Positions 8,096-56,505 of a stretch of DNA of 64,000 bases are shown here, piece after piece; position 1 is the stretch's first letter; each line of letters begins with the position of its first letter. A program made the position numbers and the translations under genes. The notes below the pieces were generated by a model that saw nothing but the letters and a program-made list of their open reading frames with translations, was not told where the DNA came from and did no database searches. Origin of the DNA: a virus. Location: IMG/VR virus record IMGVR_UViG_3300017963_000229, positions 1 to 64,000 of that record; one strand, written 5' to 3'.

Positions 8096-8096
8096 T

Positions 8097-27894: not shown

Positions 27895-27905
27895 TGTTTA
27901 TCTCC

Positions 27906-28739
27906 CTAAAATATCATTAATTTAAATTTTCTAAAAGTACATTGAAATCCAGGATATGCACTCCATTGAAAACCGCGCAATCTTAATGTAAGATATTCTG
28001 TCGGATAATTAAATGTTCCGCTCCTGGGAGTTACATACCATTGTCTTGAATGATCCCATTCTCTAAAATAGCTTTCAATATTAATTGTTGAAGCACCATT
28101 ATAATAATCCGTTCGAATTTCATCCCCGAACCTGCGAATTCTAATCCAAACCGGATCAAATCCCATTCCAGAAGAGGCAAAGCCCCCACTATCAGCTGCT
28201 AACAAATCATAACTTGTAGTATGTTGATTTCTGAATTCCATAAATTTTCCAACATTCTCTCCTAAGCCACTAATATATATTCCTCCTGCACAACCATTAC
28301 TTGCTGTATCGTAGGATAAAGTAACATGAACATGGACAATCCAATTTCTATAAGCCATATTTTCAGGCAATGTCATTTCAACAGATCCAGTATTATTCCC
28401 CCCGCTAGCTCCTGTTATAACAATACCATCTGATCCTTCAACGACAGTGCCCGAACCAGTTTCAGTTACAGTCCACCTATCATGAACATCACTATCATTG
28501 AAATCATCCTCAACCAAATATACAGGATCCGTGCCTCCTGAAACACTTCCCCAGCTTCCATCACCCCTAAACGCTTCATCCGCATTCCCCGACAATTTAG
28601 GCATTAAACCATGAGCCGAATCTGTTGCATCCAAATCAGTGTTATCAGTCGGAGCGCCCAATTCGTCCAACTTAACAACATCTTTGTTTTCTGTTGTTAC
28701 GAATTCAGATGATACTAAATGTGATTTTATTTTACCCAT
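27906..28739 (-). CDS. Short modular tail fibre
   Basis: This 277-residue protein is the minimal member of the fibre family: the N-terminal module SSEFVTTENKDVVKLDELGA, a short linker, and the C-terminal domain starting DDFNDSDVHDRWTVTETGSG. It lacks the 330-residue repeats of its neighbour. It is co-transcribed between the 956- and 1351-residue fibres. Likely a variant receptor-binding protein or a side fibre; no enzyme motif. Confidence 0.65.
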   Translation of the reverse strand: MGKIKSHLVSSEFVTTENKDVVKLDELGAPTDNTDLDATDSAHGLMPKLSGNADEAFRGDGSWGSVSGGTDPVYLVEDDFNDSDVHDRWTVTETGSGTVVEGSDGIVITGASGGNNTGSVEMTLPENMAYRNWIVHVHVTLSYDTASNGCAGGIYISGLGENVGKFMEFRNQHTTSYDLLAADSGGFASSGMGFDPVWIRIRRFGDEIRTDYYNGASTINIESYFREWDHSRQWYVTPRSGTFNYPTEYLTLRLRGFQWSAYPGFQCTFRKFKLMIF

Positions 28740-28749
28740 GATTATTCCT

Positions 28750-31620
28750 TTAAAATATTTCTAATTTAAACTTTCTAAAAGTTGCTTGAACACCAGGGTA
28801 GTTAGACCAATTGGAAGCATATAATGATAACTGTTCAAGTTTTACTGGATAATTAAATGTTCCACTTTTTGGAAGAACATACCAAGTCTTTGAACTATCC
28901 CATTCTTGCCAATATGCATTACCATCAACATCTACTGTTGCCGCCCCATTATAAAAGTCAGTTCGGACTTCATCTCCAAATTTTCTTAATCTAATCCATA
29001 CCGCAGTCACTCCTGATTGACTGACAAATCCTGCATTGTCATCAATTTTAAGTTGATATACTGGCCCACTTTGACCTTGAATAAACATTCGCATGTATTT
29101 ATCTGCACCACCACCTTTTCCCGTTAATCTCAAAAAAGCGGCAGCTGCATCATCTGAAGATCCTGTAAATGCAAACGTAACATGTACTTGTGCAACCCAA
29201 TTTGCTTTGTTCATTTCATTAGGAAGTAACAAATCGATAGATGCTCCATGACCTGCGCTGCCAGGTAAAGTCATTACAATACCGTCTGATCCTTCCACAA
29301 CAGTACCCGAACCAGTTTCAGTTACTGTCCACCTTGGATGAATGCTATTATCATCGAAATCATCTTCGAATTTGTATTTGACCAAGTCTCCACTATAATC
29401 AATTGATGCAGTTCCAAAATCAAAAACATAATCATCAATATTTCCAGATGCGTAAACATCTACTTCATTGTTTGCCGAATCATAATAAAATTCATTAGTG
29501 GCTGTCGGAGCAGGTGATTTGTATTTCATTCTAACGCCATCAACAAACCCTTTTAAGTCATATCCGCTAGGCGTGTCGGCAACTCCTCCACCATTTGGAA
29601 CCTCAGGAAGTGCAAAAGACACTATATCGCCTGGGGTTTCCCCTCCGGTAGTTACGTACTCTTTAACATGAGGAGACACCGCAAAAGTATCAATAAACAC
29701 AATATCATAGTCATCCGCCGTTCCACCTGCGTAAATATCAATCTCGTTACTAACCGGATCATAGTAATACTCAAATACGCTTGTTGGCGGATTATTGTAA
29801 CCTAACCTGGTCGAATTCCTAAAAACACCAGAAATATTATATCCGCTTGGCGTACTAGCGGCACCATTACCACTAGGGGTCCCTGTTAACGCAAATGAAA
29901 CTATATCGCCTGGGGTTTCCCCCCCGGTTGTACTAAACGATTCCTCAACCAGGTTAGGAACACCTGAAGACAGATAAGTAACATCATTTCCACTAGATGT
30001 TACATTATATCTAAATTTATAATAACTTCCCGTGTCAGATATGAAGGTCACCGTTCTTGTTGAATTCTCATAATGAAACGTATCCATTACAGTAGGAGTA
30101 CCAGCAACATGTCTCGCCTCAAGACCGTTCATAAGAACCTGTAAACTATACCCACACGGCGTATCCGCAACCAACGGTTGATACGTCAGAACAAACGATG
30201 TTTCTCCAGTAGACAAAAACGTCTCAACATGCATTACAGGAAGCGGATCGTCACTAACAATATTTGATCCATCTCGTTTCAAATATTCGCCATCAGCAAT
30301 ATCCCCAATTGTTAACTCTGTAGGGCCACTAGTCTCTCTAATTCCCCGTACATCTGGATCTGGATACATTCCTCCTAATTGACCTCCAGCACTCCCAGAA
30401 GGAGGCCTGCTGGCTGTACTAAAATCCAGATCCCCACCGGAAATCTTTGCATTTAAATTAGCTAAACTATCTATCGTATGCTGAGATCCACCCAAAGCAT
30501 GGGCAATATCTGCTCCTATTTCCTGCCAAACTGCCGATCCAACAGTGGCGTCATTGCAAATAAAAGCCGTATCCGTATCAGTGTTTATCCAAAACGACCT
30601 TACAGAATAGCCATCATCGCTGTCATCACCAGTTGTCGGATTAGTAGTTGCAGTTAAATTATCCTTAATATTCGGCGTCCAATTCCCTTGGCCATCCAAC
30701 CTATCAAGTACGTTGCCTGATAATTTTTTTAATAATCCATGAGCCGAAATCGTAGCATTTAGATCAGTATTATCATCAGGCGCACCAAGATCGTCTAATT
30801 TTATTTCATCAACTCCCCCACTACCATGATCTGATGCATGACTTTGTGGAATCTGGGCATCTGTTAATACCCCCGCTAAACCTTCCACGTTTATTTCATC
30901 ACCGCCGCCGTCTTGATGGCTTGCTTTATGACTAAGTGGCGTCTGCGGATCAGCCAATAACCCCGATAAATCAGTTACATCTAACTCATCTCCACCGCCG
31001 TCTTGATGGCTTGCTTTATGACTTAATGGTGTTTGTGGATCAGCTAATAGTCCAGACAGGTCAGTTACATCTAACTCATCACCGCCGCCGTCTTGATGGC
31101 TTGCTTTATGACTAAGTGGTGTTTGTGAATCAGCTAATAACCCCGATAAACCATCCACACTAATCTCATCATCACCACCATTTTCATGTGTAGTACTATG
31201 AACTTCTTCTAAATTCCTAAGAGTTTTATCTAAATATTCACCACCATATCCATATTGACTATCGCCAGGAAAATAATTCTGTTTTCGTTGACTTCTAACA
31301 ACAATACACTGTTGGCCATTTCCTTTATCTTTAAACGGATTAGACGATTCAGGAATAGCATTGGTCGCAACACATTGGACAACATATGTTCCGTCAATGG
31401 CTCCATCGATTTCCAGTTGTGGATTTTGAATCACAGCAATACCGTCAGTAAAATCCCCTTTTACACCAACATTTGCCGTGCTTCCAGCTGGAACATCTAA
31501 AATTGTCCATTCCCAACTAGTTGGTGATTCTGTAGCTGTTGCACCTAATAATATTAATCTAGACGAAACATTATAAAGAACAATTTCATCTGCATTACAT
31601 GTTACTTCAGGCTTGGCCAT
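28750..31620 (-). CDS. Modular tail fibre with HxxxHxDGG repeats
   Basis: This protein has 956 residues. An Ig-like start (about 1-110) is followed by tandem 30-residue repeats (HKASHQDGGGDELDVTDLSG) at about residues 140-260, then DLGAPDDNTDLNATISAHGL, then three fibre modules each with G..(L/V)(D/R)G.R..Y/H.. and a closing DDYD.F.D strand, and the shared C-terminal domain (DDFDDNSIHPRWTVTETGSG). All parts are typical of receptor-binding fibres. The 90-bp DNA repeats could promote length variation. Confidence 0.68.
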   Translation of the reverse strand: MAKPEVTCNADEIVLYNVSSRLILLGATATESPTSWEWTILDVPAGSTANVGVKGDFTDGIAVIQNPQLEIDGAIDGTYVVQCVATNAIPESSNPFKDKGNGQQCIVVRSQRKQNYFPGDSQYGYGGEYLDKTLRNLEEVHSTTHENGGDDEISVDGLSGLLADSQTPLSHKASHQDGGGDELDVTDLSGLLADPQTPLSHKASHQDGGGDELDVTDLSGLLADPQTPLSHKASHQDGGGDEINVEGLAGVLTDAQIPQSHASDHGSGGVDEIKLDDLGAPDDNTDLNATISAHGLLKKLSGNVLDRLDGQGNWTPNIKDNLTATTNPTTGDDSDDGYSVRSFWINTDTDTAFICNDATVGSAVWQEIGADIAHALGGSQHTIDSLANLNAKISGGDLDFSTASRPPSGSAGGQLGGMYPDPDVRGIRETSGPTELTIGDIADGEYLKRDGSNIVSDDPLPVMHVETFLSTGETSFVLTYQPLVADTPCGYSLQVLMNGLEARHVAGTPTVMDTFHYENSTRTVTFISDTGSYYKFRYNVTSSGNDVTYLSSGVPNLVEESFSTTGGETPGDIVSFALTGTPSGNGAASTPSGYNISGVFRNSTRLGYNNPPTSVFEYYYDPVSNEIDIYAGGTADDYDIVFIDTFAVSPHVKEYVTTGGETPGDIVSFALPEVPNGGGVADTPSGYDLKGFVDGVRMKYKSPAPTATNEFYYDSANNEVDVYASGNIDDYVFDFGTASIDYSGDLVKYKFEDDFDDNSIHPRWTVTETGSGTVVEGSDGIVMTLPGSAGHGASIDLLLPNEMNKANWVAQVHVTFAFTGSSDDAAAAFLRLTGKGGGADKYMRMFIQGQSGPVYQLKIDDNAGFVSQSGVTAVWIRLRKFGDEVRTDFYNGAATVDVDGNAYWQEWDSSKTWYVLPKSGTFNYPVKLEQLSLYASNWSNYPGVQATFRKFKLEIF
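30880..31196 (-). repeat. 90-bp tandem repeat in the fibre gene
   Basis: tcttgatggcttgctttatg recurs at 30911, 31001 and 31091, an exact 90-bp period, with flanking diverged units on both sides. The repeat encodes 30-residue steps HKASHQDGGGDELDVTDLSG plus a ten-residue linker. It is coding, in frame and not a CRISPR array. Confidence 0.85.
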
Positions 31621-31628
31621 TAACGCAC

Positions 31629-32726
31629 CTATTCCATATTATATAAATAACCGTCTATCATTCTTCTTAAATCACTTATAAGATTTTTTTCTTCTCTTAT
31701 ATGTTTAAAGTATGATTTAAGTCTTTCTAGTTGATCTCTTGTCAAATTTCTATTTAACACATACCATGCAAACACTTCTGCAAAATCTTCAATATCATGT
31801 CGTTTGCCATAATTACTAACAGGAACAGCTACTTGTCTAATAAACTCATCACGAAATCTGTTACGATCTGTATTGCTCATATATTTACTATAATATCTAT
31901 GACCTAACTCATGTATTATTGTCCACACAGTATCATCGCCAGGATCTTCAAAAACCATCACAGCATCTTTTTTAAAAAAATATTTAGCCTTAAGTTTACG
32001 TTCTTTTCTAGAGCCTATAAACATATTCCCATACCATAAAAAACCAAACCCCTTCTGATCTAAAAGCGCCTTAGCTTTTTTTATATATTTAATATATCCT
32101 CTTAAGTCTGGCCCTCTAAGGATCTCTCTGACACCGTAATCACGATAAAATTCCGGGTTTTTATATGTAGAAATTATTTTACCTTTTATGGTATGCAAAT
32201 CTCTACCTATACTTGGCCACCATGTTATTTTCATTTTTCCTATTGAAAAATCAGATATACCTGTTTTATACCTTTTTTGAATTTCAGAAATATTCTTCTT
32301 AAGAATATTAAATATGTCAAAAGATCTCAAGCCGGGACTTCCCATATATGGACCTATTTTTCGTACAACCTGTTCTAGTACTACTTCTTTCCAATCAACA
32401 TCATTTGTTCTTGGCGTATAATAAACATATTTTTGACCATTATTAACTATATCTTTAGCTTGTTTTAGCCGTTTTTGAACAATTGTTTCCTCTTTTTTTA
32501 TATCTGCTGTCCAAAATCCAAAATTTATCAAAACATCTTCCGTCAATCTATCTATATATGCTTCCATATTGTTAAGATATAATACAGCGTCATTATAACT
32601 TCTAATTGATTTATACTGAAATAATAGTTTTTCCCATCCTTTACGCATTTTGTCAATATGCTCTTCGTCTGGCATCTGATATTTACCGTCTGATTCGCTA
32701 ATTTTTTTCAAATCACTTATAAGCAT
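31629..32726 (-). CDS. Zinc metallopeptidase (HELGH), candidate packaged protein
   Basis: This protein has 365 residues. HELGH is at residues 272-276 and EDFAEVFAWY at 313-322 supplies a third glutamate ligand, the layout of gluzincins such as the anthrax lethal factor-like (ATLF) group. The N-terminal 260 residues are helical and without a recognised domain. The leader is short with KISE at 8-11, a weaker version of the packaging leader seen in other genes. The start at 32726 follows GGAA. I infer a peptidase acting on a host protein after delivery; target unknown. Confidence 0.68.
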   Translation of the reverse strand: MLISDLKKISESDGKYQMPDEEHIDKMRKGWEKLLFQYKSIRSYNDAVLYLNNMEAYIDRLTEDVLINFGFWTADIKKEETIVQKRLKQAKDIVNNGQKYVYYTPRTNDVDWKEVVLEQVVRKIGPYMGSPGLRSFDIFNILKKNISEIQKRYKTGISDFSIGKMKITWWPSIGRDLHTIKGKIISTYKNPEFYRDYGVREILRGPDLRGYIKYIKKAKALLDQKGFGFLWYGNMFIGSRKERKLKAKYFFKKDAVMVFEDPGDDTVWTIIHELGHRYYSKYMSNTDRNRFRDEFIRQVAVPVSNYGKRHDIEDFAEVFAWYVLNRNLTRDQLERLKSYFKHIREEKNLISDLRRMIDGYLYNME

Positions 32727-32799: not shown

Positions 32800-33930
32800 T
32801 TAAGCTGTCTCTGCCGCATGTATAATTATATCAATATCTTCACCTACTTTGTACTCTTCCGTTCGATCAAGAATAACTTTTATTCCCTTTTCAATCGGCT
32901 CCCATATGCTTTCAACACCGTTATATAAAGTCGTAAATTTAGGATCCGCATCAAATTCAAACGCTAATTCATATCTTTCATCATCTCCAGGTTTGACCCA
33001 AATTTTCACTGATTCCTTTCTTAACGTTGAATCAGCAATCACTTTTACCGTAATTAAAGAATTGGAAGTCCCCGTCCCGTCCGGCGACGGATATTGATAG
33101 ATGGCATATGGCCCCCTTGCGCCAGTATTAAATGACCACTGAGTATCAGAAGAATTAGGAATAGGCCACAGATCCGACGCCTGAATTCTTACTGGTATTG
33201 CCGAATAAGATGGAAATGGCTCATTGCTATCTATGTCGAAATGATAACCATCAATTATTGTCGTTTTTGTTACTGTAAAACCATCCTGCTCTGTGTTGTT
33301 TTGCCAAGCAACATTATCGTTTATCCTAACCACAATACTGTCAGCATTTACACCGTTTTCATCTGTAATGTCAAACGAAACTCTATGTATTATATGAACC
33401 GTATCACCAGAATCGGGATCTTTATTGGATACAATCGGCCCTTCCGCATCAGGAGCAATTCCAGGAATATCAACCAGTTGTATCCCTGTCTGTAATCCAA
33501 AAAATCCATATAAATTATTAATCTCTGGAAAAGTTGGTACCAATCCTGTAAATGTCGCCGTATTATTACTACCTATTTTAACACCATAAATATCTTCTAT
33601 GTCTGATGATACTTCAGCAGTATACTGAAGATTTAATAAATTCTCACAAATAGCTTCAACTTCTGTATCACTTCTTTTATAAACACGAACTATATTAACA
33701 TTATTAGATGTTAACTGTTCTTTAACTATAAAATAGGCAGGATTTAAAATATCAACCAGATCTCCACCAATAAACCCACCAAAATTCATCTCTCTATTAA
33801 ATGTAAATCTTATTCTATCATAGTTAACAGCTTGAACTTGTTGTAAAAAAGGTGAAACTATCCCATCACCACTAGAAAGTGTCTTTTTCTCAATTCCTAT
33901 TTTAGATCCACTATAAAAAAATAAACTCAT
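32800..33930 (-). CDS. Ig-like repeat fibre protein, paralogue of 20769-21800
   Basis: I choose ATG 33930, giving MSLFFYSG, because its paralogue starts MSLFGYG; the longer frame needs a TTG at 33945. The 376 residues contain fibronectin- or Ig-like units (YIVRFTFNREMNF-type first unit, then SNKDPDSGDTVHIIHRVSFD with VAWQNN) and the shared C-terminal domain with SVKIWVKPGDDERYELAF. It is probably a baseplate-attached fibre with host-surface binding. The ribosome site is weak. Confidence 0.52.
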   Translation of the reverse strand: MSLFFYSGSKIGIEKKTLSSGDGIVSPFLQQVQAVNYDRIRFTFNREMNFGGFIGGDLVDILNPAYFIVKEQLTSNNVNIVRVYKRSDTEVEAICENLLNLQYTAEVSSDIEDIYGVKIGSNNTATFTGLVPTFPEINNLYGFFGLQTGIQLVDIPGIAPDAEGPIVSNKDPDSGDTVHIIHRVSFDITDENGVNADSIVVRINDNVAWQNNTEQDGFTVTKTTIIDGYHFDIDSNEPFPSYSAIPVRIQASDLWPIPNSSDTQWSFNTGARGPYAIYQYPSPDGTGTSNSLITVKVIADSTLRKESVKIWVKPGDDERYELAFEFDADPKFTTLYNGVESIWEPIEKGIKVILDRTEEYKVGEDIDIIIHAAETA

Positions 33931-33956
33931 AATAAATAATTTCAACTCATTCGTTA

Positions 33957-35159
33957 TTATTTTCTCGAGTTTCTTCCCCTAAAAGTATTTATCAATTCTT
34001 CAAAATCATCTGTGTCAAATATTACTCTAATATCACTAAGATTTAACTCTGACGATTCTTCATCTAGATCATCCTCTATTTCAGATATAATATCTTCAAA
34101 TTTTTCTATAACTTCTTCATTGTATTCTTTTGAATCATAAGTCCAAAACCGATCAACATCAAAGTTCCAATAAATAATAATTTTCTGATTTAGATCCTCA
34201 TCCAGATCAGTAATCATTGGAGATGTAACAACTCCTGAAATTCTAAAATAAAATTGTTCCAACAAATCTTGTATTTCCGAATCACCATTAGCCCATTCAA
34301 TAGCTTTATCTTTAATTATCTCGCCGTCCATAGATACTATATCACCATACCATATCTCATCTTCATAATATTTTTTAAGTTTTGGCTCCAACATAGACAT
34401 GTATGATTCTATTTTGCTTAAGATTCTACTAAAATTTTTATAATATTTACCAACTTCAGACTTAGAAACAATCTCATCTTCACTGTCCCAGTAATTCTCA
34501 ACTTTTCCCAAAACAAGATCATACTGAACAGCAATCTTTGCTAACTTATTTTTTCTAGAATTCCCATTTTTATCAATAATAAATGCAAAACCATATCCAT
34601 GATGATTAACATATTTATCCCACCATTCCCCATCATCTTCTGTTATACACCAATGCGTATTTCTTCCAAGAATAGTTGCAGCCTTATGATTTTTAATGCC
34701 ATAAACAAAAACATTATCGTCTTCATATAAACGAATAGATCCGCTAATTTTAACTTCCTTACGTGATTTTAAATCATATGAATCCATATTATTAATAAAT
34801 ATTTCAAATTCAGACATATTTTTCCTATGCCAATATTGAATATCTGTTTGCGCTTGATTAATTAAATTCATCTCAACAGCTTTTTTAAGCTTGCCCGATT
34901 TTGCAAAAACATCAAACCTTTTTGCATACTCTACCAGATTTAATGCAATGCTATCATAAGGTTTAAATCTCCAATGATTTTTTTTATTTTTTACTTGAAA
35001 AACAGCCCACTGTAAATATTTATTATCCAATCCTAATCTAATTAACTTATCAATAAAGATTTCTAATTCTGGATTTTGCTTTTTTAACTGTCTAACACTA
35101 ACTTCAGTTAAAATAAAATAAAGTTCTTTTAATTGCGTATTATAATTAATGATTTTCAT
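33957..35159 (-). CDS. Candidate packaged protein with W-C motif, copy B
   Basis: This protein has 400 residues. The leader ends LTE at residues 17-19 (VSVRQLKKQNPE follows). Residues 165-175 read GRNTHWCITED and 190-200 FAFIIDKNG; the second half is acidic (DLDEESSELNLSDIRVIFD). The paralogue at 38350-39567 has the same leader position and RWCVAVPD. The W-C-I/V signature is widespread in large phages but I know of no established function. The gene forms a pair with the adhesin at 35190-38318. The start follows AAGG. Confidence 0.6.
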   Translation of the reverse strand: MKIINYNTQLKELYFILTEVSVRQLKKQNPELEIFIDKLIRLGLDNKYLQWAVFQVKNKKNHWRFKPYDSIALNLVEYAKRFDVFAKSGKLKKAVEMNLINQAQTDIQYWHRKNMSEFEIFINNMDSYDLKSRKEVKISGSIRLYEDDNVFVYGIKNHKAATILGRNTHWCITEDDGEWWDKYVNHHGYGFAFIIDKNGNSRKNKLAKIAVQYDLVLGKVENYWDSEDEIVSKSEVGKYYKNFSRILSKIESYMSMLEPKLKKYYEDEIWYGDIVSMDGEIIKDKAIEWANGDSEIQDLLEQFYFRISGVVTSPMITDLDEDLNQKIIIYWNFDVDRFWTYDSKEYNEEVIEKFEDIISEIEDDLDEESSELNLSDIRVIFDTDDFEELINTFRGRNSRK

Positions 35160-35189
35160 TAAAATTACCTTAATATGTTATTAATAGAT

Positions 35190-38100
35190 TCATCCCGATA
35201 CCATTACAACTGGTCTACCATATTCAATTGGACTTTTAGCAAATAATTCATTTGTTATTAAATTAACCGCCATTAGAACTCCAGAAGTTTGTTTTCTGTC
35301 CCCATGCTCAACACCTACTGCCAAATATGGAGTCACCCCATCCATCAACTTGTTTACTATTAACACTTTAGCGTATTCAGAATTTAAAATATCATGAGTT
35401 GCTACTGATCCTGGCTGACCATAGAATAAAACCATTCCACCATGAGGACCTCCGCTTGGCCATGATATTTTATATACACCATCATTGGAAGGAACATAAA
35501 ATGCCTCTGAATAATATACAGCATGCTTTTGTTGTTTATAATTTCTCGTTCCTAAAATCGTATAAGATTCATCATATGGAAAAGTTCCTCCACTATCAGA
35601 AATAGCGCCCTCCCATGTTGTTTTTGAAACATAATAAAAAGTATCTGTCCCAGCATTAGTAGCAATAAAAAATAAATCACCACTTAAATCGTCAAACCAA
35701 CACCAGGTCACATCATGACTCATATTCCAATGGCCATAATGAATACTAGTTATATTTTCAGCATTTACAGAATCCCCAAACAAATACCATCTCTTCCATT
35801 TTTGAACAGTCAATCCATCCTTTGTAGCTATTGCTTTATAAATATATCCACTACTCTCGTAAAATACAGCGTCTCTTCCCCTATACCCTTTAATCTGCCA
35901 ATTATTCCTATCACTATAATATCCTCCACCCTCATTTCTGGCCGCTATTAAACCATTAGATACCGTCGTCCCCAACGCCCCCGTGGCCGCCCAATACACG
36001 TCGCTCCAACCCCTCAAAGATCCTCCCGTAATCGCACTAGCCGTATCACGACATATCCGTATATCATCTATTGAAAAATCTACTACAATTAGTCCACCTT
36101 CCGTGCTTGCAGAATCATCAACGGCATAACTAATTAAAAGCATTCCATTTTTTATAAATGCCCTTCTCGGTTTGGGCAAATATCCACTAAAATTATGCAA
36201 TGCATTTGCATCGCTTGTCGATGTTCCTCCCCTAACAAATCTCATCCATAATAAATCATTATCCACATCAATAATTTCTACCGTTGACTCAGTGCATACC
36301 ACTAATGAATGAAGAGGAAACTCTGCATTTAAACCTCTATTAGTATTAAACCCTTCTCTCCACCATCCCGCTTTATTAGTATATATTCCACTATTAATTG
36401 TAAATCCAAACACATCAACAGTATAACTTGTCGGATCTTTTAATCCTGCATTGATCCAAGCAAATACCTCATTCGCTAAAACATCGTTAGAATAGCTTCT
36501 TAAAAACACCCAGCCTCCACCTGTATCATAATACGCACTTAAAGTGTTTCCAGATCTGGTTATCCTAAACTTTCCAGATGTAGCGCTAGATCCATGTTGA
36601 ACATAACTAACCCATGAATTATTTATGCGTACATTACTATCGATCCTACCCCCGCCTCCCGGAGTCCTTCTTATGTAAAAATAATTATTAGAATCAATTA
36701 TCACTCTAAACGAAATACCGCCATCACTTACACTAGCTGAAAAATTCTCCCAAGAAAATTCAACATCAAAATCGTCAGATAAACACCACCTACCATAAGA
36801 TACTATTTGTTTACTTTTCCAACCAGCAAAAGGAGAACTTAAAGAAATCCTTATCTTATCATCTGCAATTAATGACAAATTAATATCAGGATTATTACCC
36901 GACGACAACGGCTCTATGCCGTCAAAAGCCCACGCCGTATTGTTCAACCCGCTAGCTAATGTCCCAAATCCGCCAGGGCTACAATCATAACCATCATAAA
37001 CAAATGTCCCATCCCTTTTGGCCCCATAATATCCAGTACCTGTTAGTCCGCTATTCCATATATCATTAGAAGCATCATAATAAAAAAGATGCAAAATATT
37101 CCTTCCGCTTAAAAACTCGTTTCCATGGATATCATCTTTACCTTGCACATAATCAATATCTGATATTTCAAAAAAAGCTCTATCCTCCCATGCGCCACAC
37201 TCTCTGTTATTTGTTATGTCAGGATTATAAGTGGTAACCTGTCCAGGAATAAATGTTCCAGCTGGCTTTACAGTATTATAATGAATTGATCCATTGGTAA
37301 TATCCTCAAAGAAACCACTTCCAGAATCTTCAAATACAGCAGCTTCCTGCTTTGTCTCTCCTGGAAGCAATGGAGCATTCTTTTCATCTTGTCCTACATT
37401 TATATATTTTCTCTTATCTCCTGCAGGTAAAAATTGATAATCATCTTCTATTGCAGAAGTAATTCTTTCCCTTTGTCCATATGTAGAATTTTTATGTCCG
37501 GGAATAATTAACCCTTCCCGCTCCCCAATTGGACTCTTGTGTTTTGCCTTCCCCCCTATCGGCATAATGGTAAAATAATCTTCAAAAGCTACTGCATCTC
37601 TTTTGTATCTCTGTTGCTCATTACTTGCATTATAGCCGATAAAATAATCAAACTTTGCACTTACTGCAGGATATGGGGACCAATTTCTTGTATATAATCC
37701 AACGCTTAACTTATCAGTTGAAAATTGAAAAGTATAGGTACATCCGATATTCGTCCAAGAAAAACCATCATCATCGCTATAATAAAAAACAACAGTATTA
37801 GCATTTATTAAATCCCCAAAACCATCATAAGATACTGGATAGGAACTAGAATTCCACGCAATTCTGTATCTGTGCGCAGTAACTAAAGGACTAGTTACTG
37901 TTGTTGCACTGCTACAAATAGTAGAAAAAGAATCATTATAACCTTTTTGAGCATGAATTTTATCATCATCTTTAGAATAGCCAAGAAAAATCGCATTCTG
38001 ATTATCATTAAACAACACAAGTCCTGCCATGCATTCACTACTTGAGCTGGCAACATCCACTACCCTCGTCTCAATTATGTTAATTCTTCCAGAAATCCTA

Positions 38101-38318
38101 TTATTATCTTCATCGCCACCATATAGCGGCGCTACATCCCTAACAATTGCATGAGGAGCCTTTGCTGAACCACTCCACCACGAACAATCAATTCCATCCG
38201 AAATAGATATTAACAAATTACCATCACCAGACTGAGTAAGCCTACCATAATATGGTAAACTTTTCTCAATCTCTACAATGGTACCGGTAAAGTTATATTC
38301 AAATCGTTTAATTAACAT
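35190..38318 (-). CDS. Large adhesin, paralogue of 39610-42075
   Basis: This protein has 1042 residues. It contains lectin/concanavalin-like beta blocks (YNFTGTIVEIEKSLPYYGRL near the start; FSWENFSASVSDGGISFRVI at about 510), a middle of acidic short repeats (AAVFEDSGSGFFEDITNG, AWEDRAFFEISDID), and a C-terminal propeller-like part (ECTESTVEIID-type phrases such as SLVVCTESTVEIIDVDNDLL). The paralogue shares the AWED/AFED repeats and the C-terminal phrase SLIIVANKELIIFDLDSYD. No enzyme motif is seen. Probably a virion adhesin. Confidence 0.6.
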   Translation of the reverse strand: MLIKRFEYNFTGTIVEIEKSLPYYGRLTQSGDGNLLISISDGIDCSWWSGSAKAPHAIVRDVAPLYGGDEDNNRISGRINIIETRVVDVASSSSECMAGLVLFNDNQNAIFLGYSKDDDKIHAQKGYNDSFSTICSSATTVTSPLVTAHRYRIAWNSSSYPVSYDGFGDLINANTVVFYYSDDDGFSWTNIGCTYTFQFSTDKLSVGLYTRNWSPYPAVSAKFDYFIGYNASNEQQRYKRDAVAFEDYFTIMPIGGKAKHKSPIGEREGLIIPGHKNSTYGQRERITSAIEDDYQFLPAGDKRKYINVGQDEKNAPLLPGETKQEAAVFEDSGSGFFEDITNGSIHYNTVKPAGTFIPGQVTTYNPDITNNRECGAWEDRAFFEISDIDYVQGKDDIHGNEFLSGRNILHLFYYDASNDIWNSGLTGTGYYGAKRDGTFVYDGYDCSPGGFGTLASGLNNTAWAFDGIEPLSSGNNPDINLSLIADDKIRISLSSPFAGWKSKQIVSYGRWCLSDDFDVEFSWENFSASVSDGGISFRVIIDSNNYFYIRRTPGGGGRIDSNVRINNSWVSYVQHGSSATSGKFRITRSGNTLSAYYDTGGGWVFLRSYSNDVLANEVFAWINAGLKDPTSYTVDVFGFTINSGIYTNKAGWWREGFNTNRGLNAEFPLHSLVVCTESTVEIIDVDNDLLWMRFVRGGTSTSDANALHNFSGYLPKPRRAFIKNGMLLISYAVDDSASTEGGLIVVDFSIDDIRICRDTASAITGGSLRGWSDVYWAATGALGTTVSNGLIAARNEGGGYYSDRNNWQIKGYRGRDAVFYESSGYIYKAIATKDGLTVQKWKRWYLFGDSVNAENITSIHYGHWNMSHDVTWCWFDDLSGDLFFIATNAGTDTFYYVSKTTWEGAISDSGGTFPYDESYTILGTRNYKQQKHAVYYSEAFYVPSNDGVYKISWPSGGPHGGMVLFYGQPGSVATHDILNSEYAKVLIVNKLMDGVTPYLAVGVEHGDRKQTSGVLMAVNLITNELFAKSPIEYGRPVVMVSG

Positions 38319-38349
38319 TTACAACAATTCGCATTATATTAATTATACC

Positions 38350-39567
38350 TCAAAATTGAAAACCAATAGCATTATTAGGATCATTTTTTCTTGTTATAGA
38401 TAGATTTTTAGCCTCGATATCTTCTGTAACAAATTCACCATCAATGATATATTTTAAAGGCTCATCCAATATCATATGATACAAGTCAGTAACCTCTTTG
38501 TATTCTTTACTGTCTTTATTTAATCCATTAACTAAATTATTATAATAATCATCAAAATCAAGTTTTACTTTATTATCAGCTATCCAGGTTACTTCAATAT
38601 CATCTGAAAAAGATGCAACTAGCGGATCTGTAACCTCTCCTGATAATTTAGAAATAAATTCATGCATAAAATCTTTATATACAGACCAATCGTAATAAGT
38701 AAAATTGTAGCCCACAAAATAATCATCAATAAATTTTTGAGGATCGCCATCATATAACACCTCATCCCCATACCATATTTCATCTTCCTCTCTATCAATA
38801 CGTATGTCAGCAGTTATTCCATATCCGTTTATCTTACTGATTATCTTTTTCCATAATTGAGGCCCATAATACTTTAAATATTCCTTATCATCTCTAAGAT
38901 CGTTATCATAATCCCATAATTCATTAATTTTATCAATTTCTTTGCTAAATATAACAACAGAAAAAGCAAGAGAATTGTTATTTGGATTTATAAATTTATC
39001 AATAACATAAAAGAAAATCTCACCTTCAATAGATCTATCTCTATAATCACTTCTGTCCGGAACAGCTACGCACCATCTTGATTGGCCTATTTTACATGAC
39101 GAATCAAATTCTAATGGCCGCCATATAATAACTCGTTCATCTTCATACACTAAGTCAGCATCATTATAAACCCTACGTTCAAACTTCTTCGTTCTTAAAG
39201 AATTAAAATCAACATTATATGAATCTAATCTGTCAAGAAATTCCTTAAAATCTTTTACAGTCTTTTTGTTCCAATAGTCAATATTAACTTCTTTTTTATC
39301 AATTAGCCCAACTATTGAGGCTTTCATTAAGCCATCAGTACCATATTTTTCAAATCTAAATATTAACTCAACTACTTCTTTAATATCAATATTTTCTTTT
39401 TTCTTCTTAATTAATGCCCATTGAAAATACTTATTAGGTATAGCTATTGACCACTTTTGTAAATTATCTAAAAAATCCACATATTCCGGATTATTTATTT
39501 TTAATTGTTTTACGTTAACTTCAATAAGATAAGATTTAAATAATCTATTTGCCTGTAATATATTCAT
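38350..39567 (-). CDS. Candidate packaged protein with W-C motif, copy A
   Basis: This protein has 405 residues. Leader YLIE at residues 13-16, followed by VNVKQLKINNPEYVDFL, aligns with VSVRQLKKQNPELEIFI in copy B. Residues 160-170 read IGQSRWCVAVP, matching the W-C core. The remaining sequence is acidic and helical, with no recognised enzyme domain. It pairs with the adhesin at 39610-42075. The ribosome site is weak. Function unknown; the leader suggests packaging with the DNA. Confidence 0.6.
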   Translation of the reverse strand: MNILQANRLFKSYLIEVNVKQLKINNPEYVDFLDNLQKWSIAIPNKYFQWALIKKKKENIDIKEVVELIFRFEKYGTDGLMKASIVGLIDKKEVNIDYWNKKTVKDFKEFLDRLDSYNVDFNSLRTKKFERRVYNDADLVYEDERVIIWRPLEFDSSCKIGQSRWCVAVPDRSDYRDRSIEGEIFFYVIDKFINPNNNSLAFSVVIFSKEIDKINELWDYDNDLRDDKEYLKYYGPQLWKKIISKINGYGITADIRIDREEDEIWYGDEVLYDGDPQKFIDDYFVGYNFTYYDWSVYKDFMHEFISKLSGEVTDPLVASFSDDIEVTWIADNKVKLDFDDYYNNLVNGLNKDSKEYKEVTDLYHMILDEPLKYIIDGEFVTEDIEAKNLSITRKNDPNNAIGFQF

Positions 39568-39609
39568 TCTTTTGCGCCTAATTTCTAAACAAAATTAATT
39601 AACCAACCA

Positions 39610-42075
39610 TCAATAAGGTAACCCCACAATCCAAAAACATCCATCCTCATCTAAGTTAGGATAAGTATAAGAATTAACCAAATTATCATCTAACATCCTT
39701 ACAATGTTAACATTTCCTCCATAACTTTCATATAACCATGAAGCGATAAAAAGATAATCAGTTACCGATGTTGATAACACCATTACATCTCTAAAGGATA
39801 AAGACTGTCCAATTAATATTTCTCCATCTGGAGGAGTATTATCATTGCCACCACCCCCTAAATCCGTCAACGAATAAGCCAACCAATAATCCATTGTTCC
39901 CCTGTTCAACATATAAACCCCACCCTCAGTAACTACAAAAATATAATCTCTCCCAGAAAAAAATCCCCTTACATTATAAGGAAATACAATCATCTTATCA
40001 ATGCTTTTACTCGATGAATTTTGTGTTAATCTACCATATTTATAATCAAAAACATTCCGCCAGATCTTATTTTCTCTAGAAAACCATAACCAGCCACTCT
40101 GATCAAAATGTAAATTCCTATATCCATCAGTCATAACATTGTGCTCGCCAACATCGTCACCAACTACCGAATTAGAAGTCTGACCAATATTATCTACATA
40201 CATAACCACCCCAGGACTAATATCTTCACCAACAAGCACAACCCACATTTGAGTAATATCCGTCTCGTCAAAAATAGCATCAACGGTTTTTACATATTCT
40301 GGACCTATTCTCAACGAAGGACTAACACCCGTTTGTGTATAAACCCCACCTGTATCATTTCTATTGGCTATTGTTTTTCCAGATATCGCTTGCCAATGAC
40401 CGTCACTTCTAACTAAACTAAAAACATTTTGACCTGTAGCTTTAAAATCAATCGTTATTACTCCACCATTTGCAATGACAGTTTCTGTTCCTACCACCAA
40501 CACCCCATTAACCATTTTTACAGATCTAACACTGGCCTCCCCGCGCCCAAGGGCTTTAAAATTACTATCATCATCGAACATAAATCTCATCCACATAGTT
40601 AGATTAGCAGCCGTCCCATCATAACTATCCAAATCAAAAATAATCAATTCTTTATTGGCAACAATAATAAGTGATTTACTCGGAAATTCCGAATCTGGAC
40701 CCCTATAATCCGAAGCCCCCTCCGTTCTCCATGGTGCCTCTACTGGCCCCGCGTCTTGAACACCACTTGTATATTTATATCCTTCAATTGAATAACCAGA
40801 AAAATTATTTTCAGTCGGCTTAGTCCACGGTTCATTAGTAGTATCATATATATACGCTGCAATTGGCCTATACGAAGAAAGAAAATGTGCATAACCATGA
40901 ATATCGTTAGTCGTTCTATTAATATCTGTAACATTACTAATAAGAGCAGTGCCTACGTCCTCAAATGCAGCACTATCCTTTCTCACATTATTATAAGTAC
41001 TACTAAATAAGGCCCCGCTTGTCTCGCGTGGATAATTATATCTTCTATTGCCTCCTGAATTTAAAAAATCTACTCTATCCTCTATCCCCCCTTTTAATTC
41101 CTGCCGATCTCCTTGTCTAGATTTTGTTCTTATACCACCAGGGATAATCTCCCCAGCCGCCCAATCAGAATGATGATAATGTTTTCTTATTCCACCCCCG
41201 CCTTTTTCAACCCTATCCTCCCAAGCCCCTTTTTTAACTTCCTGAGTAACTCCAATTCCAACACCTGGATAAGAAAATCCTTGATATTTAGGTTCCCCTC
41301 CGCTGCTAATAAACTCTTCATAATCCTCCCAAGCCGCATTATCACTCTTTTGTAATACTATCGACCCTTCCCCTAATAAATCTTCATAAGCATCATAAAT
41401 AGCACTATCACCAAAAGTTTCAGCAGTTAACCGTGCCGAAAAAAGCACAGTATCTGTCGTGTCAAACCTAAGCCTTTGAGTATTTCCACTTGTGGCTTTC
41501 TCTGCTTCCTGAGTTGTTATTGTATCAATCAAACTACCATTTAAATAAAGCCTCCTCGTCTGACCATCCGAACTAACCGTCATAGCTAGATAAATCATTT
41601 CATCAAATATCACATCAGAAGTAAACGTAATATCCGTATCTAGACCAGCCCCATATTCACTTTGTGTAAAATAACTACTACCAGAATGTTGACCTAATCC
41701 ATATAACACATTAGTCTCAAGAGATTCTCCAGAACTATAACACCTAATTATCGGTAAAGTATCATGTTTTATAAAAACTAATTCGACAGTTAACGATGCA
41801 TCACCTCCTCCACCACTATCTTTCGCAATGCGTAATGCCTCTTCACTAGGTGCAATTAAATTGCACCCGCTTAAATCAATCCCTACAAGCCCACTATATA
41901 TTTCCGTCTCATAACTCGCCGATCCAGATTCTACAGTTAAATCTCTCCCTTGTCCCGTTCTATCCAACAACGAAAACGCTGTACTATCAAACCAATAAAC
42001 AAATAATGGATTACTTGTTACCGTTGGAGGATTAGAGGTCGATAAATAATCGACTATAATTCTATCGTAACTCAT
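39610..42075 (-). CDS. Large adhesin with LamG/concanavalin-like N-terminus
   Basis: This protein has 821 residues. Residues 20-230 read like a concanavalin-A/LamG domain (YLAMTVSSDGQTRRLYLNGS). The middle has acidic AWED/AAFED repeats, and the C-terminal 400 residues are propeller-like (SLIIVANKELIIFDLDSYDG). The paralogue at 35190-38318 has the same middle and C-terminus but a different N-terminus. Likely a virion adhesin; no enzyme motif. Confidence 0.6.
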   Translation of the reverse strand: MSYDRIIVDYLSTSNPPTVTSNPLFVYWFDSTAFSLLDRTGQGRDLTVESGSASYETEIYSGLVGIDLSGCNLIAPSEEALRIAKDSGGGGDASLTVELVFIKHDTLPIIRCYSSGESLETNVLYGLGQHSGSSYFTQSEYGAGLDTDITFTSDVIFDEMIYLAMTVSSDGQTRRLYLNGSLIDTITTQEAEKATSGNTQRLRFDTTDTVLFSARLTAETFGDSAIYDAYEDLLGEGSIVLQKSDNAAWEDYEEFISSGGEPKYQGFSYPGVGIGVTQEVKKGAWEDRVEKGGGGIRKHYHHSDWAAGEIIPGGIRTKSRQGDRQELKGGIEDRVDFLNSGGNRRYNYPRETSGALFSSTYNNVRKDSAAFEDVGTALISNVTDINRTTNDIHGYAHFLSSYRPIAAYIYDTTNEPWTKPTENNFSGYSIEGYKYTSGVQDAGPVEAPWRTEGASDYRGPDSEFPSKSLIIVANKELIIFDLDSYDGTAANLTMWMRFMFDDDSNFKALGRGEASVRSVKMVNGVLVVGTETVIANGGVITIDFKATGQNVFSLVRSDGHWQAISGKTIANRNDTGGVYTQTGVSPSLRIGPEYVKTVDAIFDETDITQMWVVLVGEDISPGVVMYVDNIGQTSNSVVGDDVGEHNVMTDGYRNLHFDQSGWLWFSRENKIWRNVFDYKYGRLTQNSSSKSIDKMIVFPYNVRGFFSGRDYIFVVTEGGVYMLNRGTMDYWLAYSLTDLGGGGNDNTPPDGEILIGQSLSFRDVMVLSTSVTDYLFIASWLYESYGGNVNIVRMLDDNLVNSYTYPNLDEDGCFWIVGLPY

Positions 42076-42077: not shown

Positions 42078-42974
42078 TTAAACTAAATCAAATAATGTTT
42101 CTTCTTTATGATTATTATTTATCAATATAGTCTCAGTCCTTGACTGATTTTTTAACAGAACACCCTTTCCTAATAGACCTGTCTGCTTTGTTCTAGCTAC
42201 TACATAACAAGCTGTTTTTATATCATGTCTTACCCATTTATTATCTACTAACGGTTTATAAATATTACTATAATAACAGCTTAAAATAACTTTACCCTCT
42301 ACTTGTAATAACATGTCTATCAAATCTTTATGATCTTGATTGTCTAACTCATGCTTATAAGTTACAGCCTGTCTAGTATCTGCAACATAAGGAGGATCAC
42401 AATAAAATAGAGTATTCTCCGTGTCGTACTGCTTTATAACTTCTCTAAAATCTTTATGTTCAATTTGCACTACCCTCAACCTCTTATGTATTTCTGGTAA
42501 CATCTCTATACATGATAACCATGTTGAAACTGTGTCAGCCATATTTCTACATGAACTAGTTATTGCATTACCCCAACCCTTTTTATGAGTTTTACCATTT
42601 TCTAATATTCTTTGTACAACACCACCACCAAATGACTGTCTAGCCACCACAAACCACTTAACAGCTCTGCCAACTTCATCTTCGTCATCCTCCCACACAT
42701 CTCTGCAATAATTAAATTCCTCCCTAGAATAGGGTATCAGTTGAACTTGCCTATAAAACTCTTTAAATTTATCCCTGTCTCTTAAAACTCTAAAAAAATT
42801 AATTAACCCGCTATCTATATCATTGTAAACTTCTACCCTTGAAGGCGTTTTCGCAAGTAATAAACTTGCTCCACCTCCAAAAGGCTCTACATATGTTACA
42901 TGTTCTGTAAAAAATGGTAATATCTGCTTCTTTATGTTACCTTTGCCACCAAGCCATCTTATCGGTGAATTCAT
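42078..42974 (-). CDS. D12-class N6-adenine DNA methyltransferase (Dam-like)
   Basis: The start is ATG 42974 (MNSPIRWLGGKGNIKK); the longer frame adds a non-conserved leader. Residues 31-35 PFGGG form the SAM-binding loop and residues 193-196 DPPY the catalytic motif IV. The 298-residue length suits the Dam group, which methylates adenine in short palindromes, often GATC. It sits between fibre genes and a paralogue array, an unusual place for a DNA modification enzyme, and is probably a moron that protects phage DNA from host restriction. Target specificity cannot be read here. Confidence 0.9.
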   Translation of the reverse strand: MNSPIRWLGGKGNIKKQILPFFTEHVTYVEPFGGGASLLLAKTPSRVEVYNDIDSGLINFFRVLRDRDKFKEFYRQVQLIPYSREEFNYCRDVWEDDEDEVGRAVKWFVVARQSFGGGVVQRILENGKTHKKGWGNAITSSCRNMADTVSTWLSCIEMLPEIHKRLRVVQIEHKDFREVIKQYDTENTLFYCDPPYVADTRQAVTYKHELDNQDHKDLIDMLLQVEGKVILSCYYSNIYKPLVDNKWVRHDIKTACYVVARTKQTGLLGKGVLLKNQSRTETILINNNHKEETLFDLV

Positions 42975-42981
42975 AGATATC

Positions 42982-43671
42982 TCACATATTAACAATTTTC
43001 AATTCATACTGAACAAACAACATTTGATTATTAGTTTTATCAAATGTTATCGGTGACCCATTCTCCTTCAATCTTACCCTAGCACTCCTTTCCACATCCA
43101 TATAGTTAGGCCAAGGAGAAAATAAGGCATCTGCATCTGTAGCATTGCCAAAAACTCCAATACTCCTAATGTTACTTCCATTACATTGATCAGTTGTATA
43201 CATAAAAGCATTTCTAAATGAAATTTCTTCACGAATGTCTGACGATATAACTTCATAATCAAACATCTGATCTTCTATAAACCTTTTTGCAGCACCATTT
43301 GTATTATTAGTATTTACCGAATTGGCAACATCGTGAATGTATCCAGTATCAAACGGTAAACTCCCTGTCCACTCTACAGTATAACTTGCTGGTTCGGAAT
43401 CAATATTTAACATACAAATAAACCCCAATAACGCCATAGCACTATTACCATAGTGATCGGACCAAGGAAATTTAGATGTAGCTTTTACAAATAATTCCTG
43501 CAACAAGTAGGCCGCCGCCCCATCAAATATTCTATTTTGAATAGAAATCTCTTTTTCTATTTCAAAACTATCAATTAACTTTTTTAAATTTCCTTGCTTT
43601 TCAACTACAAGAAAATCCTCATCCGTTAAATTGCCAACATTTAATAATTTTATAATAAAAAAACCACTCAT
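42982..43671 (-). CDS. Paralogue array member 4, virion protein
   Basis: This protein has 229 residues and is one of four related proteins at 42982-45674. Shared landmarks are an N-terminal K(L/Y)...(D/E), QNRIFDGAAAYLLQELF, LGFICMLNID, AKRFIEDQMFDYEVISSD, REEISFRNAFMYTTD and a C-terminal LFVQYELKIV. It is beta-rich with no enzyme motif. Its ATG overlaps the previous stop by one base. Confidence 0.55.
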   Translation of the reverse strand: MSGFFIIKLLNVGNLTDEDFLVVEKQGNLKKLIDSFEIEKEISIQNRIFDGAAAYLLQELFVKATSKFPWSDHYGNSAMALLGFICMLNIDSEPASYTVEWTGSLPFDTGYIHDVANSVNTNNTNGAAKRFIEDQMFDYEVISSDIREEISFRNAFMYTTDQCNGSNIRSIGVFGNATDADALFSPWPNYMDVERSARVRLKENGSPITFDKTNNQMLFVQYELKIVNM

Positions 43672-44183
43672 TAGAATGTTACCAAGCTAAAAACGTAATC
43701 AACCAAAACCACTTGACCACTTATTTTTTCACTCGTTATAGGAATTCCACCGCCATCTTTGTTTTTTACTCTTCCTATTCGAGCTATATCATGTCCTCCT
43801 GTTGTAGCATCAGCATTAGCGCTAAAAAAAATACCAATACTCTCTATAGAACTAGAGATACACTCTTCTGAAGAATATAAAAACGAATCTTTAAAACTTA
43901 TTTCTTCCCTATCCCCATCAAACCAAATGTCATAATTTCCTAAGCTATCCTCTATAAACCTTTTAGCACCATAAGTATTATCCACCGAATCACTAACACT
44001 GTGAATGTTTGGACTAGCCGTCCCTGTCCAATTTTCCGTATAAAAAGACTCATCAACAGTACTTAATAAACAAATAAAACCTAACGCCGCAACTCCCCCT
44101 CCTGTATCATTATAAGGACTATCACATGCAGACAATCCAAATAAATTATCAAATATATATCCGGCCATATTGTCAAAAATCAT
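43671..44183 (-). CDS. Paralogue array member 3, N-terminally truncated
   Basis: I use ATG 44183; a TTG start at 44192 is also possible. The 170 residues begin at MIFDNMAGYIFDNLFG, matching residue ~45 of its siblings, so the first 45 residues are missing. No such sequence is found in the upstream overlap because the preceding gene ends there. No ribosome site is clear, so it may be expressed by coupling to the upstream gene. It keeps REEISFKDSFLYSSEECIS and the C-terminal LVDYVFSLVTF. Confidence 0.5.
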   Translation of the reverse strand: MIFDNMAGYIFDNLFGLSACDSPYNDTGGGVAALGFICLLSTVDESFYTENWTGTASPNIHSVSDSVDNTYGAKRFIEDSLGNYDIWFDGDREEISFKDSFLYSSEECISSSIESIGIFFSANADATTGGHDIARIGRVKNKDGGGIPITSEKISGQVVLVDYVFSLVTF

Positions 44184-44188
44184 AATTT

Positions 44189-44863
44189 TCAAAAACTAAC
44201 TAATGTAAAAATATAGTCAAAAGTTATTATTTCTTCTGAATTCTTAGTTAAGGTTACATTATTACCATCATCGTCCTTAAATCTTACCCTGCCAATCCTG
44301 CCACGCTTATTATATGATGAAGCAGTATGATTATAAGAGTCAGTATCATTATGAAATAAAATACAAAATCCATTTATATTATCAGATATGCATTCTCTTG
44401 ATAAATATACAAAACTACTCCTAAAAATAATAGATTCCCTGCGAACATCTGACTTTATTGAAGTATTATATGCACCATCAGTCGCTTCTCTAATAAAAAA
44501 TTTAGAAGCAGAACTAGTACTAGCAGAACCTGCAACACCATTGTTGGTTGTATTCCAGTCTGAATACCAATCTTCAGTATAAGTCGTTGTATCAGTATCT
44601 AAAGTGGAAAGATTAATATAAGTCAACATCGAATGCGAAGAAGGAGCATCATAATATGGATATGCGCAATTGCCTAACCCAAACAAAAAATCCAACAAAT
44701 ACCCGGCAACATTATCAAAAATTCGATTTTTACAAACTATTTCCTGTTTAAGTTCAAGCCCTTTAAGCAACTGTCCAAATGTTCCATCCTTAATGGTTTT
44801 CTCGAAATGCTCATCAGAAAAACCACCGCTATCATATTTCTTAACTTCCACAACCCCGTTCAT
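44189..44863 (-). CDS. Paralogue array member 2, virion protein
   Basis: This protein has 224 residues, with CKNRIFDNVAGYLLDFLFGL, SSFVYLSRECISDNINGF and DYIFTLVSF marking its kinship to the array. The start ATG at 44863 overlaps the stop of the 48-residue mini-gene, so the two are coupled. Four related proteins in one place suggest that each fits a different site on the virion or a different receptor; no sequence shows which. Confidence 0.55.
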   Translation of the reverse strand: MNGVVEVKKYDSGGFSDEHFEKTIKDGTFGQLLKGLELKQEIVCKNRIFDNVAGYLLDFLFGLGNCAYPYYDAPSSHSMLTYINLSTLDTDTTTYTEDWYSDWNTTNNGVAGSASTSSASKFFIREATDGAYNTSIKSDVRRESIIFRSSFVYLSRECISDNINGFCILFHNDTDSYNHTASSYNKRGRIGRVRFKDDDGNNVTLTKNSEEIITFDYIFTLVSF

Positions 44864-45009
44864 TAATCTTCCCTCTCGTTCAAATCATCCAAAAAATTAT
44901 CCAATATTTTATTTATTTCACCAATTTTTTTAACAACTATCCTATTAACATCCTGCAATTGATAATATTCATCGATAAAATCATCAAAATATTTTTTAAA
45001 TTCTTCCAT
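44863..45009 (-). CDS. 48-residue helical mini-gene between array members
   Basis: Begins MEEFKKYFDDFIDEYYQLQ; contains IVVKKIGEINKILDNF and ends LDDLNERED; a stop-start overlap couples it to array member 2. It has no similarity to the array proteins and no recognised family. The acidic coil would suit a small chaperone or an assembly partner of the array protein that follows, but this is inference. It is too short for most gene callers. Confidence 0.45.
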   Translation of the reverse strand: MEEFKKYFDDFIDEYYQLQDVNRIVVKKIGEINKILDNFLDDLNERED

Positions 45010-45011
45010 TT

Positions 45012-45674
45012 TTAAATACTTACTAATGTAAAAGTATACTCGAATAATAGGGCTTCCCCATCATTCTTTACAATTTGAGTCAAATTACCATCTTCATCCT
45101 TTATTCTGGCCCTCCCAATTCTTTTATTCCATGTCCACCCCAATGTGGCGTATACTCCACGAAAGTAGATACTAATATTTCTAATACTTCCTGAATTGCT
45201 CTGCGAAGGCACATATAAAAACTTATCCTTAAAAACTATCCTATCTGAATCAATATCCGCATACAGTCTATAATCTTCGATCACATTTGACATAAAATAC
45301 TTGCTACCATTACTAGTATTTACACTACTTTCTACCGAATGAATACTTGTGTTTTTAGCCTGATGATAAGTTTCAGTATAAGATGTTGTATCAGAAGTAT
45401 GAGAGCTTAAATTAATAAAACACATTCCAGCAACATGAGAACTGTGCTCAGTAATTTGTTGATCCCAATTATTCCCTAAATCACCTAAACCAAACATATG
45501 TTTTAATAATAAAGCAGGAACCATATGAAAAATCCGATTCCTACATGCATAATATTGTTTTAATTTAAAATTTTTACATAAAGCATCTGCGCCAAATTTA
45601 CTAACATAGTTAACAACTTCAACATCGCTCATACCGTTTACATCGATAAGTTTTATATCAAAAAAACCATTCAT
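45012..45674 (-). CDS. Paralogue array member 1, virion protein
   Basis: This protein has 220 residues. Landmarks CRNRIFHMVPALLLKHMFGL, GMCFINLSSHT, SDRIVFKDKFLYVPSQSN and LLFEYTFTLVSI place it in the array. It is the first member in transcription order, following the large baseplate-side protein at 45745-48315. A tiny 20-residue frame lies just upstream. Confidence 0.55.
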   Translation of the reverse strand: MNGFFDIKLIDVNGMSDVEVVNYVSKFGADALCKNFKLKQYYACRNRIFHMVPALLLKHMFGLGDLGNNWDQQITEHSSHVAGMCFINLSSHTSDTTSYTETYHQAKNTSIHSVESSVNTSNGSKYFMSNVIEDYRLYADIDSDRIVFKDKFLYVPSQSNSGSIRNISIYFRGVYATLGWTWNKRIGRARIKDEDGNLTQIVKNDGEALLFEYTFTLVSI

Positions 45675-48334: not shown

Positions 48335-48676
48335 TTAACTCTTTTTCATTCCATAATACTCAAAATCTTCGCCTTGCTCTGAAAGGAGAAGCAAACTATT
48401 TACTCTAGTAAAATCAGTATCTTGACGAGTGCCGGAATTCGGTACTCGTAAAAATTCTTTAAATTGCTTTAGTTTTTCACCTTCAAGTTTACAAATCATA
48501 TCATCATCGAATTCATCCTTCCACTCGTCAAAAATATTTTTCAAGAGCCTTTTCCCATCCTCTGAATATTCCAGAATTCGACCTATCTCGCGAGCTATAA
48601 ACCAGGGTTGTCCATCAATCTCAATCACAGTTAAACTATTGTTTTCAAAATTAAAATGCTTAATCAAATCTTTCAT
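48335..48676 (-). CDS. Truncated BRO-N domain protein
   Basis: This protein has 113 residues. It matches the first ~100 residues of the BRO-N gene at 17615-18562 (MKDLIKHFNFENNSLTVIEI, EIGRILEYSE), keeps LLLLSEQG, then ends EDFEYYGMKKS instead of continuing through the second half of the domain and the C-terminal helix. It has an ATG where its paralogue has TTG. It is probably a decayed or shortened copy, with uncertain activity. Confidence 0.62.
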   Translation of the reverse strand: MKDLIKHFNFENNSLTVIEIDGQPWFIAREIGRILEYSEDGKRLLKNIFDEWKDEFDDDMICKLEGEKLKQFKEFLRVPNSGTRQDTDFTRVNSLLLLSEQGEDFEYYGMKKS

Positions 48677-55861: not shown

Positions 55862-55874
55862 TGTTTATCCTCTC

Positions 55875-56315: not shown

Positions 56316-56346
56316 TTTTCTTCCTTTAATCTTAGTCTTAAAACGT

Positions 56347-56481: not shown

Positions 56482-56505
56482 TGTTTTTCTTCCTTGATTT
56501 TTTTA

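Follow-up and report, generated by a model that had tools for sequence, protein, structure and literature searches.

The window analysed here is a stretch of 64,000 nt at positions 1-64000 of a virus record (IMGVR_UViG_3300017963_000229) that is 88.6 kb long and itself partial. Nearly all the genes of the window lie on the minus strand, and a contractile-tail and baseplate gene set could be recognised among them by eye. Two adhesins and two proteins carrying a W-C motif are encoded consecutively in this run, in the order adhesin, W-C, adhesin, W-C, with gaps of 30-42 bp, and all four open reading frames lie exactly where the first-pass annotation had placed them (Table 1). Scans for promoters and terminators gave results at chance level only. 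We also observed that the gene adjoining the upper adhesin (42078-42995, minus strand) resembles, by eye, a D12-class adenine methyltransferase with a DPPY motif, and that the three fibre-like proteins encoded within 23839-31620 (minus strand) have a C-terminal domain of ~210 aa in common (43-49%). The zincin gene is the third leader-bearing gene of the stretch; it sits between fibre-like genes and has only sub-threshold Pfam matches.

Table 1. Positions of the adhesin and W-C genes, their leaders and motifs, and adjoining genes in the window
Feature	Position	Strand	Remarks
Adhesin / tail-fibre-like protein, upper, 821 aa	39610..42075	-	LamG-like N-terminus, AWED repeats, beta-rich centre
W-C protein 2, 405 aa	38350..39567	-	Leader MNILQANRLFKSYLIE|VNV; 43% to L006, 30% to W-C protein 1
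Putative capsid-targeting leader of W-C protein 2	39520..39567	-	Residues 1-16, ends YLIE (13-16); predicted cleavage
W-C motif of W-C protein 2, IGQSRWCVAVPDRS	39049..39090	-	Residues 160-173
Adhesin / tail-fibre-like protein, lower, 1042 aa	35190..38318	-	Extra concanavalin-like segment, AWED repeats
W-C protein 1, 400 aa	33957..35159	-	Leader MKIINYNTQLKELYFILTE|VSV; confident predicted fold directly after leader
Putative capsid-targeting leader of W-C protein 1	35103..35159	-	Residues 1-19, ends ILTE (16-19); predicted cleavage
W-C motif of W-C protein 1, GRNTHWCITEDD	34632..34667	-	Residues 165-176
Ig-like fibre-type protein, flanked by W-C protein 1 and zincin	32800..33945	-	Paralogue of 20769-21800
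Zincin-type HELGH metallopeptidase	31629..32726	-	Leader MLISDLKKISE; sub-threshold Peptidase_Mx, E 0.00091
Fibre-like protein after zincin	28750..31620	-	C-terminus common with 27906-28739 and 23839-27894

We compared the four genes pairwise. The two W-C proteins align at 30% identity over 345 aa (E = 1e-34), with the leader, the W-C motif and the body all included as had been claimed, and neither has any other match within the 88.6 kb record. The corresponding claim for the adhesins held in part. They align over a central domain of ~290 aa (26%, E = 9e-9) and, in the AWED region, over ~92 aa (30%, E = 9e-7), and they alone among 84 ORFs carry at least two AWED-type motifs. Their N-terminal domains are unlike, one being GH43_C2-like (0.0086) and the other Laminin_G_3-like (0.0066), with neither match reaching its Pfam cut-off. 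The common C-terminus was also borne out only partly, the last ~240 residues giving no BLAST alignment between the two, and when one adhesin was used to query the record, the other was not among the matches at E ≤ 10. An AlphaFold2 model of the upper adhesin, made from a two-sequence alignment, was unusable (pLDDT 26). Judged by these alignments, the paralogy of the W-C proteins is clear and that of the adhesins is modest.

Other paralogues were observed in the same record. Four tandem paralogues, 26-40% identical, occupy 42982-45674, and four small ones, 28-38% identical, occupy 54841-56958 (both minus strand). The products of 17615-18562 and 48335-48676 (minus strand) are 75% alike over their first 102 residues and differ in length. 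L004:10995-12263 and L005:11012-12103 (plus strand), in two places of the record, are near-duplicates with internal repeats (61% over 341 aa).

Next, we looked for relatives elsewhere. A pattern search of viral contigs found none for the adhesins, and tblastn in phages with the adhesins found none besides gp248 of Tunturi_5, the only outside relative, which matches the upper adhesin at 35% over 126 aa and is located in a tail-fibre region. Tunturi_5 has no W-C match. The W-C set comprised 40 members, from viral contigs, SCTP-2 and the window; homologues in PA5oct, Paride and relatives were added by tblastn. Their conserved core is approximately [AS]xCxYGKNT[RK]WC[IT], after which come NxFxxY and a GxxF strand. 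The Gly, Thr, Trp and Cys residues of this core are nearly invariant and may be catalytic or structural. SCTP-2 has seven W-C copies in one genome. No relative was confirmed in cellular genomes in one scan with a single 8-residue pattern, which is a weak probe. PHROGs 17056 and 28193, both of unknown function, are each matched by 29 of the 40 W-C domains, and W-C protein 1 matches phrog_17056 at 3e-4; these entries are unannotated, and the leader and the effector context described below lie outside their description. We found no description of W-C proteins in the literature searched or in the paper on polyvalent proteins (PMC5512222). They form a widespread, uncharacterised family present in many giant phages.

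Variants of the W-C arrangement were also seen. A single protein of 1434 aa (L011:6102-10406, plus strand) has two W-C domains. Seven W-C genes lie in two tandem runs on one 32.8 kb contig (L047 and L049) with a different leader (MVKLRRVFESDLYLESK), which lacks L/I-x-E; this cluster adjoins tail-sheath and tail-tube genes. The record behind L044 has a second W-C match at 18809-19297 that is interrupted by one in-frame TAA and may be a decayed copy.

The AlphaFold2 model of W-C protein 1 (overall pLDDT 69.8) is confident only from about residue 21, the pLDDT being 57-59 for residues 1-20 and 90 for residues 21-30. Its N-terminal part is helical, and the W-C motif lies in the five-stranded part that comes next. 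No solved structure resembling the W-C domain was found by sequence or by fold. Among the BFVD models, Foldseek matched the fold to other W-C proteins, to the PA5oct structural protein described below and to PcfJ-like proteins, the last with E-values of 4e-4 to 2e-2, probabilities of 0.72-0.99 and low whole-chain TM-scores. In both the PcfJ-like family (PF14284) and the W-C proteins, a Gly loop is followed, in matching register, by a conserved Cys, and PcfJ has HC or IC where the W-C proteins have WC. An hhalign comparison aligned the expected Gly-to-Cys register and was not significant (probability below 1%). Sub-threshold PcfJ matches were obtained for two of the 40 members (best E = 0.0045), and in the scans made no member exceeded the curated cut-off of 25 bits. 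The W-C domain is possibly PcfJ-like in its predicted fold and not a member of PcfJ itself.

The first-pass annotation had called the W-C proteins packaged-type, and this description is supported by their leaders, by the proteases of the large phages that carry them, and by a mass-spectrometry note. In T4, a ten-residue capsid-targeting sequence (CTS) is enough to get a protein packaged, and the gp21 cleavage site follows L/I-X-E (PMC9026906). In 29/40 W-C N-termini, residues 4-40 included an (L/I)xE-type leader, compared with 18% of internal 37-mers and 27.5% of the N-termini of other ORFs of the W-C loci; the nominal binomial p-value against the internal segments, 1e-13, is approximate as the rows are related. 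In the 88.6 kb record, the leader is modular and attached to unrelated bodies. The adjacent genes 1-1007 and 994-1467 (minus strand) have near-identical leaders (MNIYNTNIKL[RK]KYLSEIT) on unrelated bodies, with 90% identity confined to residues 1-21. Three adjacent genes of L026 also have a leader in common. Between W-C genes and their neighbours, N-terminal likeness with a score of at least 40 was found in 2/161 same-locus and 1/4853 other-locus pairs, so that the alignments give few clear cases.

Leader-like N-termini were also noticed at 1992-2840 and 52895-53482 of the window and at L005:2799-3455 and 8076-8480 (minus strand). By eye, the products of 994-1467 and 52895-53482 resemble ADP-ribosyltransferases (ART); for the latter, no match was obtained in Pfam, NCBIfam or PDB.

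A T4 gp21-type (S77) prohead protease was present in 9/10 W-C records of at least 140 kb, namely in all eight of 145-440 kb and in Paride. The tenth large record, CcrBL9, is without S77, and its W-C protein begins MKSPKAVEVILAKHGARIAEVV with no LxE leader. ME3 and Tunturi_5, giant phages with no W-C match, lack S77. The protease was absent from seven W-C fragments of up to 110 kb, and none was found in the 88.6 kb record, which is partial. The numbers are small, and the co-occurrence may simply track T4-like phages.

In PA5oct, the W-C homologue is EST35_0205 (39% to the L012 W-C protein over 211 aa), which starts MKLFEVFTLYE, is annotated as 'structural protein, ESI-MS/MS' and is encoded directly after a terminase-like gene. 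The PA5oct mass-spectrometry list includes cytoplasmic enzymes, and therefore detection is a weaker proof of packaging. A bare leader regex was not enriched among the PA5oct mass-spectrometry proteins (10/79 versus 19/157, p = 1.0), which makes the motif by itself a poor predictor. This negative result, the leaderless W-C protein of CcrBL9 and the fact that PcfJ-like proteins, the nearest fold relatives, are not known as packaged would suit W-C proteins that act in the producing cell and are not virion cargo, their N-terminal likeness being just a conserved helix. We consider this very unlikely, given the mass-spectrometry note, the occurrence of the leader on unrelated bodies, and the model, in which the first 20 residues are of low confidence and stand apart from the fold.

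We then examined what accompanies the W-C domain. In L027, the W-C gene adjoins a leader-bearing gene starting MLSFKKFLHIQEA, the N-terminal part of which matches ADPrib_exo_Tox with 27.5 bits (cut-off 23.4), and the two genes have a C-terminal repeat array in common (65-67% over 286-332 aa). In L007, two leader-bearing ART-like genes lie beside the W-C gene, one with a sub-threshold Pfam ART match (0.014), and in both SCTP-2 and L026 leader-bearing HExxH genes lie beside W-C genes. From the ART and zincin neighbours bearing leaders and from the L027 repeat array, it follows that the W-C domain occupies the place of known effector domains. The swap of W-C and ART on one repeat scaffold points to a predicted injected activity. 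The same observations bear on whether the W-C proteins might instead be structural proteins of the head or neck, with the leader serving as a maturation propeptide as in gp23 or gp24. The PA5oct homologue is noted as structural, and in both PA5oct and Paride W-C genes adjoin the terminase, as in L006 they lie near head genes; a variable copy number (as many as the seven of SCTP-2), variable C-terminal repeats, a repeat array common to W-C and ART proteins, and leader-bearing zincin and ART neighbours fit effectors better. We therefore regard a structural role as unlikely.

The first-pass annotation had further proposed that the adhesin and W-C genes were duplicated as a unit of ~4 kb, hinting at a functional tie between the two; in such a module, the adhesin would pick the host in which the cargo acts. 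The alternating order with its short gaps, the homology of both halves, and a C-terminal segment that W-C proteins 1 and 2 have in common and that is missing from the W-C protein of L006 are in favour of this. W-C protein 2, however, is closer to the L006 protein (43% over 254 aa) than to W-C protein 1 (30%), and it forms a 100/99 clade with L006 in a tree that includes several long-branched rows and does not place W-C protein 1 firmly. In L006, pentapeptide repeats stand instead of the common C-terminal segment; because of this replacement some exchange must have occurred, and L006, not the window, could be the rearranged one. The genes upstream of the L006 W-C gene include one for a capsid-like protein, and no adhesin was seen beside it on this contig, which ends inside the W-C gene.

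Conservation of the pair as neighbours in related phages had been set as a test beforehand. Over 28 loci, we observed that the neighbours of W-C genes are mostly not adhesins: they are chiefly nucleotide-metabolism, homing-endonuclease, terminase, methyltransferase, ART, zincin and further W-C genes, head genes also being among the usual ones. No tail-fibre family was among the first 25 families listed in the PHROG and Pfam tables for these neighbours, except for an RNA ligase/tail-fibre attachment entry, which is the name of an RNA ligase. The sole adhesin relative found lies in Tunturi_5, a phage with no W-C match, and the GC contents of the two gene classes differ sharply: each W-C gene has 28%, the adhesins 37-38%. 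Low GC was common to the nine leader-bearing genes of the record (27-32%, average 29%), as compared with sixty other genes on the minus strand, which have a mean of 36% (p = 1e-5). Since the leader-bearing zincin also lies between fibre-like genes, the alternation is not specific to the adhesin/W-C pair. The closeness to L006, the neighbours, Tunturi_5, the GC contents and the zincin alternation together favour separate insertion of cargo among late tail genes. The idea of a co-duplicated functional unit is probably wrong, and we hold a duplicated two-gene module to be quite unlikely; the neighbouring adhesins look incidental and not part of a fixed two-gene unit.

The explanation that we favour, and consider fairly probable as a whole, is that the W-C proteins are head-packaged effectors with a leader, encoded in the minus-strand run of late structural genes and inserted among the tail genes, with the adhesins being ordinary tail-fibre-like proteins and not co-evolving partners, and the W-C domain being, from its predicted model, a compact alpha/beta domain. 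It builds on the homology, the leader enrichment, the S77 co-occurrence, the mass-spectrometry note on one homologue and the ART domain swap. The short N-terminal leaders would direct the W-C proteins of this phage to the prohead core, where an S77 protease of the T4 gp21 type would cut them after L/I-x-E; the mature proteins would then be ejected together with the DNA to act on the newly infected host. Giant phages may use W-C, ADP-ribosyltransferase and zincin bodies interchangeably, placing each after a leader of this type and before variable C-terminal repeat arrays. The alternating gene order would be the outcome of AT-rich cargo genes having entered the spaces between late tail genes or been swapped among them.

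T4 offers a known parallel, as its internal head proteins IPI-III and Alt also have a short N-terminal L/I-x-E leader (the CTS, cut by gp21) that is common to unrelated bodies. The presence of an S77 protease in large W-C phages and of ART bodies in W-C loci adds to the likeness. In contrast to the T4 proteins, the W-C proteins have unrelated bodies, their genes lie here among tail genes, and their packaging, cleavage and ejection are predicted. Polyvalent proteins resemble the W-C loci in their phage-delivered zincin and ART domains and modular architecture, and the paper describing them makes no mention of PcfJ (PMC5512222).

We give about even chances to the broader proposal that the W-C proteins constitute an unrecognised superfamily of head-packaged and injected giant-phage effectors, which would combine one kind of leader with a swappable effector domain (W-C, ADP-ribosyltransferase or zincin) and a variable, target-selecting repeat array and would have expanded into paralogues scattered among late genes. 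One of the carriers, Paride, replicates on dormant Pseudomonas aeruginosa (PMC10761892). Its W-C homologue makes the family testable in culture. Giant phages pack dozens of uncharacterised proteins into their heads, and a leader that can be read from the sequence and is tied to the presence of S77 would help to predict head cargo from metagenomic contigs.
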